Source: Pseudomonadota bacterium
GTDB taxonomy: Bacteria > Pseudomonadota > Alphaproteobacteria > Rhizobiales > Hyphomicrobiaceae
DNA: 7,078 nucleotides
Assembly (NCBI GenBank): GCA_021813195.1
Contig: JAKALI010000209.1
Location: forward strand, 1 to 7,078
Reading direction: 5' to 3'
The position numbers were made by a program, and so were the translations under genes. Positions within the stretch are counted from its first letter, which is position 1; every line of letters starts with the position of its first letter. Below, one piece after another: positions 1 through 3,924 of this stretch. Below the pieces are notes generated by a model. That model worked only from the letters and a program-made list of their open reading frames with translations, searched no databases and had not been told where the DNA came from.

Positions 1-777
1 AAGCCGCACGTTCAACTGCAGCACAGTCCCGGCGATTGGCGACCTCACAGTCCGCAATTGCAGCCTCGATTGAGCGAGTTCCAAAGCCGCGCGAGCCTGC
101 TCCACATGGGCCTTCTCGACCGCTATCAACTCACCACCCTGACCATTGACTTCCAAGTGCTGCGAGAGGTTCGCCTCGGCACGGTGAATGCCGGCAACTG
201 CCCTCTCGACTCGAGCGCTCGCAGAACGAAAGGCGTTTTCGCGCTCGATGCGCTCTCGGCCGCTCATGACCCCCTTCAAGCGATCGGCCATCTCCCACAG
301 GTTTCTGGCGGCATCTCTTTCGGCGGTTGCGGCGGCCAGCTCCCAGCGAGCCATGTCGACCTCCGCCTTCTGGATCGGAGCGCGGGCGCGCATGGACTTA
401 AGCTTCGCCTCGGCTGTTTCGAGGTCGCGCCGGCGTTCGGCAACCGTCGCCTCCTCTACGCTCGTTTCAAGGGTGAACAGGGGAGAGCCGCGCTCGACGA
501 CATCACCCGCCTCGACGAGAATCTGCGCGATCGTGCCGTGGGAATCTGTACCGACGACGATGTTGCCGCTCGAAGGCTCAGCGATGCCCGAGGCTCCGAT
601 GAAACCGGCCGATCTCTTGTCCTCGACCGGCGCCAGCACCACCCTGGTCTTGGTGCTCGGCTCAGCGGCATGTCGTGCGTCACGATGGCCGCGCGCGATG
701 GAGATGCCCGCGAGCGCCAGCACCGCCACTGCGGCAAGTGACAGGCCCGCTCCGAAAATCGCCGAATGCTTTGCCAT
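1..777 (-). CDS. HlyD/DevB-like periplasmic membrane fusion protein, C-terminal part outside window
   Basis: Adaptor subunit of a tripartite ABC exporter, expected to sit in the inner membrane and span the periplasm. The frame is open from ATG at 777 to the window edge (259 codons, no stop), so the 3' end is missing. Residues about 8-29 form one hydrophobic N-terminal anchor or signal segment. Residues about 66-105 look like the first half of a lipoyl/biotinyl-like domain (GTIAQILVEAGDVVERGSPL). About 106-240 is a long Ala/Glu/Arg-rich region of coiled-coil type. At 245-258 the second lipoyl half begins (RSPIAGTVLQLNVR), typical of HlyD/DevB proteins. The start overlaps the stop of the ATPase gene (TAATG), with a strong GGGAGG at 785-790, seven bases upstream. 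Gene order permease-ATPase-adaptor supports one exporter. Family is clear; the substrate is not readable from the sequence. Confidence 0.9.
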   Translation of the reverse strand, partial: MAKHSAIFGAGLSLAAVAVLALAGISIARGHRDARHAAEPSTKTRVVLAPVEDKRSAGFIGASGIAEPSSGNIVVGTDSHGTIAQILVEAGDVVERGSPLFTLETSVEEATVAERRRDLETAEAKLKSMRARAPIQKAEVDMARWELAAATAERDAARNLWEMADRLKGVMSGRERIERENAFRSASARVERAVAGIHRAEANLSQHLEVNGQGGELIAVEKAHVEQARAALELAQSRLQLRTVRSPIAGTVLQLNVRL

Positions 778-1496
778 TACGCCGCCTCCCTCGGTCGATG
801 CGGCCCCGTTGCAGCAATCCGGCCGTCGTCCATCGTGATCATGTTGTCGGCATAGGTGAAGATCCGCGGATCGTGAGTGACGATGATGATCGCGCGATCC
901 TTGCTCAACGCCGTTCGCCTCAGCATCGCCATCAGCGTGTCTCCGGTCTTTGCGTCGAGCGCCGCCGTCGGCTCGTCACAGATCAGAAGTGGCGGATCGT
1001 GGGCCAAGGCGCGAGCGGCGGCTACGCGCTGCTGCTCGCCGACGGACAACTCGCCGGGATAGCTCCCGAGCTTACTGCCGAGCCCGAGCTCATCGATAAC
1101 GGTCGCGGCCTTCTCACGAGCATCCTGCCGCCTCCAACCAGCAACGATCAGCGGAATCATGGCGTTCTCAACCACATCGAGCGCTGGCAGCAGATGGAAC
1201 TGCTGCAGGACCATCCCGATCCGCATTGCCCGGAACCTCGCGGCCTGGCTGCCATTCAAGGCGTGCACCTTCGTCCCGAGCACATCGATTTCGCCGCTGT
1301 CCGGTCGCAGAATGCCGGCGATCGTCGAGACGAGCGTCGTCTTTCCGCAACCGGACGCACCGACGATGTAGGTGACTTCACCCGCCGGAATATCGACGTC
1401 GATGCCATCGAGCACGGGCCTCTGCCGGCCGCCATCGAACGACTTGGTCAGGCCTCTGCAGCGGACGGCGGCCGGGGTGGCATCTGGCTGGTCCAT
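777..1496 (-). CDS. ABC exporter ATP-binding subunit (DevA/MacB/LolD-like)
   Basis: Cytoplasmic ATPase, 239 residues, powering the adjacent FtsX-type permease. Visible motifs: Walker A GASGCGKT at 46-53, Q-loop in VLQQFHLLP (Q98/Q99), signature LSVGEQQRVAAARAL from 150, Walker B LLICDEPTAALD ending at D181 with catalytic Glu E175, and switch His H208 in VTHDP. The signature reads LSVGE rather than LSGGQ, a variant seen among DevA-type ATPases. The frame is open upstream to another ATG at 1613, but that would overlap the permease C-terminus by over 110 bases and give an Arg-rich, unrelated N-terminus. The ATG at 1496 is preferred: AGGAG lies at 1503-1507, six bases before it, and it falls two bases after the permease stop. 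The stop TAA overlaps the start of the membrane fusion gene. Length is normal for this family. Confidence 0.95.
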   Translation of the reverse strand: MDQPDATPAAVRCRGLTKSFDGGRQRPVLDGIDVDIPAGEVTYIVGASGCGKTTLVSTIAGILRPDSGEIDVLGTKVHALNGSQAARFRAMRIGMVLQQFHLLPALDVVENAMIPLIVAGWRRQDAREKAATVIDELGLGSKLGSYPGELSVGEQQRVAAARALAHDPPLLICDEPTAALDAKTGDTLMAMLRRTALSKDRAIIIVTHDPRIFTYADNMITMDDGRIAATGPHRPREAA

Positions 1497-2641: not shown

Positions 2642-3924
2642 GCGCGTATCAGGCTGTCGGTTCGCGCGACAGAAGAAGGTGAACGCGGCCGCGAGCGATC
2701 GTCCGCACCTCTCTCGAAGGCCAGCCCGAACTGCGTCCAGACCTCGACCAGCGAGCCGACGAGATGGGCGATGTCTCGGTCGGAGTGCAGTGGCGTTGGC
2801 GTAAGCCGAAGGCCTTCTTTGCCGCGCGGCACCGTCGGGTAGTTGATAGGCTGCACGTAGATGCCCCGCTCCTCGACCAACCAATCGGTCAGCCGCTTCG
2901 TCAGTACGGGGTCGCCGACGCGCACGGGCACGATATGGCTGTCGTTCTCGATGATCGGCAGACCGGCATTGCACAGCAGCCGCTTGACGGTGCGGGCGCG
3001 CTCCTGATGGTCTTCGCGCTCCGTGCTCGACGATTTCAAATGTCGGATGCTCGCGCAGGCGCCCGCAGCGATTGCCGGCGACAGCGATGTGGTGAAAATG
3101 AAACCAGCCCCGTACGAGCGGATCGCGTCGCACAGATTGCGCGAGCCGGCAACGTATCCGCCCATGACGCCAAATCCCTTGGCGAGCGTGCCGTTGACGA
3201 CGTCGACTGCGTCCATCACGCCGTCTCGCTCGCTGATCCCGCCGCCGCGTGCGCCGTACATGCCGACCGCATGAACCTCATCGAGGTATGTGAGGGCATT
3301 GTATTTCTTCGCCAGATCGCAGGTGCCAGCGATATCGGCTATATTGCCCTCCATCGAGTATACGGATTCGAAGGCGATGATTTTGGGTCGGGAACGGTCG
3401 AGCTGCCGCAAGTGCCATTCGAGATGGTCGAGGTCGTCGTTGCGCCAGATTCGTTTCTCGCCGCCGCCATGGCGGATTCCGGCGATCATCGAGGCGTGGT
3501 TCTTCTCGTCGGAAAGAACCACGCAGCCGTCGAGCAGACTTTGCAATGTGGCGAGCGTCGTATCGTTGGCGACGAACGCCGATGTGAAAAGGAGGGCGGC
3601 CTGCTTGTGATGCAGATCCGCAATCTCGGCCTCGAGATCCACGTGATACTGCGTCGTCCCGGAGATGTTGCGCGTCCCTCCAGACCCCGCGCCGACGGCA
3701 TCGATAGCATCGTGCATGGCAGCTATCACGGCTGGATGCTGCCCCATACCGAGGTAGTCGTTCGAGCACCAGATGGTAATTGGCCGCCCGCCACTAGTGC
3801 AAACGTGATGCGCCGCCGGAAACGAGCCGCGCGACCGGCGAACCTCCACGAAGACGCGATAGCGTCCCTCCTTCCGCACGTCATCCAATGCCTGGGCGAA
3901 ATGCCGTTCGTAGAGAGTGAGCAT
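2638..3924 (-). CDS. hemA: 5-aminolevulinate synthase (ALAS)
   Basis: Pyridoxal-phosphate enzyme condensing glycine and succinyl-CoA to 5-aminolevulinate, the first step of the C4 tetrapyrrole pathway. It has 428 residues. Hallmarks: EGRYR (19-23), WCSNDYLGMGQHP (from 52), AGSGGTRNISGTT (79-91), KNHASMI (141-147), FESVYSMEG (185-193), LDEVHAVGMYG (214-224) and the PLP-lysine motif NGTLAKGFGV with K249. Recalled substrate contacts of the Rhodobacter capsulatus enzyme appear conserved (R23, N55, T84, N86, S138, K157, S190, T364, R373 here). This favours true ALAS over the related KBL, AONS or SPT enzymes. After about residue 403 comes an Arg/Ser-rich tail of some 25 residues. No Cys-Pro heme regulatory motif is seen. 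The ATG at 3924 is chosen because family homology begins there and GGGAG lies eight bases upstream; an earlier in-frame start at 4038 adds unrelated sequence. It is first gene of the exporter operon. Whether it is the only ALAS of the organism is unknown. Confidence 0.96.
   Translation of the reverse strand: MLTLYERHFAQALDDVRKEGRYRVFVEVRRSRGSFPAAHHVCTSGGRPITIWCSNDYLGMGQHPAVIAAMHDAIDAVGAGSGGTRNISGTTQYHVDLEAEIADLHHKQAALLFTSAFVANDTTLATLQSLLDGCVVLSDEKNHASMIAGIRHGGGEKRIWRNDDLDHLEWHLRQLDRSRPKIIAFESVYSMEGNIADIAGTCDLAKKYNALTYLDEVHAVGMYGARGGGISERDGVMDAVDVVNGTLAKGFGVMGGYVAGSRNLCDAIRSYGAGFIFTTSLSPAIAAGACASIRHLKSSSTEREDHQERARTVKRLLCNAGLPIIENDSHIVPVRVGDPVLTKRLTDWLVEERGIYVQPINYPTVPRGKEGLRLTPTPLHSDRDIAHLVGSLVEVWTQFGLAFERGADDRSRPRSPSSVARTDSLIRA

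Follow-up and report, generated by a model that had tools for sequence, protein, structure and literature searches.

Three described exporters come closest to the locus studied here. MacAB-TolC of Escherichia coli is reported to expel protoporphyrin (PMC4263509), and the Gram-positive heme exporter HrtBA is reported to take heme from the membrane (PMC5985334, PMC11442138). The third, DevBCA, is a glycolipid exporter. In a 7,078-nucleotide (nt) stretch of DNA from a Hyphomicrobiaceae bacterium (contig JAKALI010000209.1 of assembly GCA_021813195.1; this whole stretch is called the window below), genes for a MacB/DevC-type exporter directly follow a gene for 5-aminolevulinate (ALA) synthase (ALAS). 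This ALAS-exporter operon is real, rare and recurrent, as the same gene order was found in three Bosea genomes. The reading we tentatively favor is that an extra ALA supply is coupled to tetrapyrrole export or protection in a horizontally spread accessory module. No account of such an operon was found among the papers that literature searches listed, judged by titles and abstract openings, which is not proof of absence.

The four genes of the operon all lie on the minus strand. The first is an ALAS-like gene of the hemA type (2638..3924, 428 amino acids [aa]), followed by an ATP-binding cassette (ABC) permease of the MacB/DevC type with the FtsX fold (1499..2641, 380 aa), an ABC ATPase resembling LolD, DevA and MacB (777..1496, 239 aa; PF00005), and a periplasmic adaptor of the HlyD/MacA type (1..777, 259 aa), which is open at the window edge and has Bosea homologues of 391 to 398 aa. 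The ALAS stop and the permease start share an ATGA overlap (2638..2641, minus strand; -4 nt), the permease and the ATPase are 2 nt apart, and the ATPase and the adaptor overlap by 1 nt in TAATG. The four genes and their junctions, as described by a first-pass annotation made from the sequence, were found again, and domain searches agreed with its permease, ATPase and HlyD-type adaptor. Its description of the exporter as complete did not hold, for the adaptor is cut by the window edge and no gene for an outer-membrane factor or TolC-type channel lies within the window. On the 5' side of ALAS, a leader (3925..4400, minus strand) in which no regulator gene was recognised ends before insertion-sequence remains. 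The sole promoter-like site in the window (4666-4639) is located further up than this leader, and one such site is expected by chance.

Recurrence of the operon was seen from both of its ends. When genome contigs were scanned with the window ALAS and the best 80 loci were kept, at least one, in Bosea sp. LC85 (L002), also carried the permease, ATPase and adaptor directly behind ALAS; this count is a lower bound because some loci, such as L037, end soon after ALAS. A permease search of 200 LC85 relatives gave six matches at E<=1e-30, three of which (LC85, G025 and G069) have the full ALAS-permease-ATPase-adaptor order. ALAS and permease are spaced by 35 to 47 nt in these three copies, compared with -4 in the window, so that the ATGA overlap is peculiar to the window among the four linked loci compared, while the spacing is tight in all. 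Identity between the Bosea and window proteins is 58 to 65% for ALAS and permease, 48 to 50% for the ATPase, and 40 to 41% for the adaptor. The concern that the exporter might stand beside ALAS only in this strain is thus dispelled; wider conservation of the order across alphaproteobacteria, a prospect raised at the same time, was not borne out, no linkage being seen beyond Bosea and the window.

Each of the three Bosea genomes contains two ALAS genes at E<=1e-90, one linked to the exporter and one unlinked, and the linked type is present in 3 of 67 Bosea-group genomes, namely these three (78 to 100% identity to that of LC85; next best 66%). By eye and by Pfam, the flanking genes are common to LC85 and G069 and different in G025. 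In LC85 an SDR gene lies near ALAS; in G069 (L102 12302-16195), the two are separated by a BenE transporter, a MocR-type regulator and an alanine-racemase-N protein. The ratio of nonsynonymous to synonymous substitution rates (dN/dS) between LC85 and G069 is 0.07 to 0.19 for the four genes, indicating purifying selection. Because of the second ALAS copy, the foreign ALAS type described below and the low dN/dS, the Bosea operon looks like an acquired and maintained accessory unit.

The foreign type is apparent from a 93-row ALAS tree, in which the linked ALAS fall in a 19-row Hyphomicrobiaceae-like clade (support 100/98) apart from the Bosea housekeeping ALAS; judged by this tree, the linked ALAS is foreign to Bosea. 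A single clade of all four linked ALAS was rejected by an approximately unbiased (AU) test (p-AU 0.0055) on 30 rows that we chose out of the 93. In this subset, the window ALAS joins L001 and L005 (98/96), and the Bosea linked ALAS join G132 and L006 (100/97); the separate-clade result is not final, given the long branch of the window row. In the permease tree, built by a quick method, the window and Bosea permeases belong to one 45-row clade (SH-aLRT 98), of which the unlinked G132 permease is also a member. A phage origin was considered and rejected: window positions 1-4038 match no phage record closely at the DNA level, ALAS and permease (the two proteins searched) have no PHROGs match, and a search of viral contigs gave no relative of the permease.

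The pairing is rare within the exporter family. Permease relatives were found in 2 of 397 genomes of the order (E<=1e-60) and, at E<=1e-80, in 9 of 377 genomes of the family, 16 of 385 of the class, and 3 of 248 and 1 of 249 of two other relative sets, all these sets overlapping. Of 406 permease relatives found in a protein search, the 120 listed are sequences without gene context. ALAS adjoins 3 of the 27 permease loci examined (upstream flanks mostly about 1.5 kb, about 0.3 kb in L160); these are the three Bosea loci, whose permeases are also the closest to that of the window (59 to 61%, versus at most 54% for the others). Upstream of the unlinked G132 permease (L103 2452-9633), there are a cytochrome c554-like gene and a CcmH/CycH-TPR-like gene, and a cytochrome-c-like piece was read by eye upstream of the unlinked G001 permease (L120). 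A TetR-family gene lies upstream in at least 8 of the 24 ALAS-free loci (two on the same strand, six divergent), a lower bound because Pfam was run on only eight upstream open reading frames (ORFs) picked by eye. According to these counts, ALAS stands where this exporter family often has a regulator. For two further relatives, on plasmids, the annotation shows an outer-membrane channel gene and no adjoining ALAS, the Asticcacaulis relative lying with TetR and TolC and the Cupriavidus one with an outer-membrane subunit. This distribution suggests that the ancestor was a general efflux pump and that the ALAS linkage is derived, near the window, in a subclade with many members from metagenomes.

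These arrangements bring in the main rival of our reading, namely gene dosage or hitch-hiking: a rearrangement would have put an extra ALAS under one promoter with a general efflux pump, which would serve unrelated substrates, for instance drugs, lipids or plant chemicals. The TetR genes and the two plasmid arrangements resemble those of a general efflux pump, and few members of the family have a linked ALAS, as this explanation would have it. However, the order persists in two Bosea backgrounds whose flanking genes differ (LC85/G069 and G025), purifying selection between LC85 and G069 acts on each of the four genes, and the window repeats the order with ALAS and permease at the identities given above. 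We consider the explanation unlikely on this balance.

The ALAS protein itself is a clear family member. It scores 619.1 bits with TIGR01821, above the curated cut-off of 338.55, and its nearest solved structures are the ALAS 7x98 and 2bwn. It retains R21, T84, H143, D215/H218, K249 and R373 (window numbering), residues which we take to have catalytic roles in ALAS, and both the pyridoxal phosphate (PLP) lysine and the substrate motifs are conserved. From family and motifs, the enzyme is predicted to condense glycine and succinyl-CoA. The first-pass statement that all expected active-site residues are present is right for the motifs checked; it overlooks four invariant or nearly invariant positions that are altered, P132D, H162N, N163D and R371G, at sites conserved in 88 to 89 of the 89 other alignment rows. 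Like the housekeeping and accessory HemA of alphaproteobacteria, the window ALAS is above the TIGR01821 cut-off and 71% identical to its nearest row, whereas it differs from them in adjoining an exporter, in its long branch in the 93-row tree and in these four changes. With these altered positions and the long permease stem (0.89), the latter shared only with P0001, a metagenome protein 95% identical to the window permease, the unit in the window lineage evolves fast and may have changed its function. The three Bosea linked ALAS have in common T375C, a position that is T in 89 of 89 other rows. Residues marking the linkage were also sought; only position 345 (L) is common to all four linked ALAS and rare elsewhere, which is unconvincing.

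The altered residues could also be read as target duplication with efflux, in which a second, modified ALAS and a pump would shield the cell from a natural compound that inhibits early heme synthesis. The substitutions in the window, T375C and the foreign ALAS type of the extra Bosea copy would fit this reading, as would the resemblance of the exporter family to efflux pumps. However, the altered residues are not the same in the window and in Bosea, and no matching ALAS inhibitor was identified, making such a role distinctly improbable.

The exporter was compared with the known systems. The permease, searched against Pfam and NCBIfam without its first 7 residues, exceeds the cut-offs of PF02687 (FtsX) and PF12704 (MacB_PCD) and so belongs to the broad MacB superfamily. 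Its sole NCBIfam match is devC (TIGR01185) at 70.8 of 290.35 bits; the nearest models of the ATPase are LolD and DevA, both under their cut-offs (DevA 183.2 of 295.8 bits); and the HlyD-like adaptor, open at the window edge, is under the cut-off of every model (DevB 39.2 of 129 bits). Because all three components fall below the Dev cut-offs, the earlier term DevBCA-type describes the architecture (a separate DevC-like permease, DevA-like ATPase and HlyD-like adaptor) and not membership, and the window also differs from DevBCA in placing permease, ATPase and adaptor in this order after ALAS. With MacAB-TolC the unit shares an FtsX-fold permease bearing the MacB periplasmic domain, a matching ATPase and a HlyD/MacA-like adaptor, and MacB is the nearest solved permease by sequence profile; it is unlike MacAB-TolC in that the permease is not fused to the ATPase, no gene for TolC is in view, and ALAS comes first in the operon.

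In fold, the permease matches MacB, LolE and HrtB. Identity to HrtB is about 15%, and HrtBA, unlike the window unit, is not known to use an adaptor. For Glu219, the axial heme ligand of HrtB, there is no evident equivalent; when a weak profile alignment (E 0.023) is extended, approximately Ile253 falls at this site. The likeness to HrtB was rejected as proof of heme export, as a control model of P0119, a relative not known to be ALAS-linked, gave the same Z.

As to what is exported, the visible unit has no biosynthetic gene other than ALAS, so that ALA is the sole product it directly encodes. This would favor a unit that makes and exports ALA itself. However, pumps of the MacB type generally take up their substrates from the periplasm or membrane, and ALA is a small, polar zwitterion of the cytosol; moreover, no MacB-type pump is named in the titles or abstract openings of the papers that a single literature search on ALA exporters listed. 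Export of ALA itself is less likely than hitch-hiking, and we regard it as improbable. The exported compound could instead be a secreted natural product fed by ALAS, either one built with a C5N unit or an antimetabolite that resembles ALA, for example alaremycin. Actinomycete ALAS copies are reported to feed C5N-type natural products, whose formation is described as going with an acyl-CoA ligase and an amide synthase (PMC4525017). Neither these C5N genes nor an ALA dehydratase were detected in the window or, by Pfam, among the 20 ORFs searched from the Bosea loci, in agreement with what the first-pass annotation had noted for ALA dehydratase and amide synthetase, and the 93-row tree places the window ALAS with ordinary ALAS of alphaproteobacteria. 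A natural-product role thus appears very remote.

A connection to legume symbiosis, also suggested earlier, was rejected. ALAS was found at E<=1e-80 in 178 plasmid records, 99 of them from Rhizobium or Sinorhizobium. Among the matches listed (the best 40 of 178), plasmid ALAS are at most 62.6% identical to the window ALAS and the rhizobial ones, which are not in the tree, about 57 to 59%, below the Hyphomicrobiaceae-like ALAS. Permease relatives occur in 12 plasmid records, none from Rhizobium or Sinorhizobium, and those of legume-associated genera are distant (Phyllobacterium 24 to 25%, Paraburkholderia 30 to 32%). Four of the 178 ALAS records were viewed: the paralogues L150, L151 and L152 lie beside ccoS/Fnr/ccmE (Rhizobium pRL9), a cbb3 oxidase (Azospirillum) and nitrite reductase/nirJ (Aliiroseovarius), and a Sphingomonas plasmid ALAS (L100) has no such company. 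A second ALAS of Hyphomicrobium (L004 7995-13197) lies among apparent photosynthesis genes (puh, acsF, bchE), as read by eye.

Upstream of the operon, broken insertion-sequence pieces are clustered at 4703-7078. They comprise IS701-type transposase remains in more than one frame (4703..5906, plus strand), a C-terminal piece of an IS110-family transposase (5873..6223, minus strand; Pfam Transposase_20), and IS3-family pieces (6576..7077, strand not assigned) with an rve domain on the minus strand at 6790-7059 and matches to IS3-bearing plasmids. The cluster suggests a mobile or decaying neighborhood.

Returning to the coupling of extra ALA supply with tetrapyrrole export or protection, the unit would be an accessory module that has spread horizontally and expresses an extra ALAS together with a MacB/DevC-type exporter. 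The enzyme would raise ALA at the entry of the tetrapyrrole pathway, and the host pathway, for which the unit carries no gene, would convert the added ALA to porphyrin or heme. Permease, ATPase and adaptor, presumably working with a TolC-type channel encoded elsewhere, would then take a membrane- or periplasm-borne tetrapyrrole and expel it, whether to secrete it for a purpose or to vent the overload that the extra ALAS would cause. The earlier idea of a dedicated synthesis-export unit is reasonable in so far as it means an accessory ALAS-plus-exporter module, because of the recurrence in Bosea, the second unlinked ALAS and the lack of ALA dehydratase and C5N genes in the ORFs searched. ALA is a less plausible substrate than a tetrapyrrole, since the reported tetrapyrrole substrates of the superfamily are protoporphyrin and membrane heme.

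A stronger form of this reading, which we hold to be decidedly unlikely, is a dedicated Gram-negative heme or porphyrin secretion system that has its own pathway-entry enzyme and moves between species as a four-gene unit. If it were true, synthesis flux and export would rise together in a secretion system equipped with its own ALAS. The operon of ALAS and a MacB-type exporter offers a concrete candidate, and a named isolate that carries it, Bosea sp. LC85, keeps a separate ALAS, so that the operon could probably be deleted there without blocking heme synthesis.
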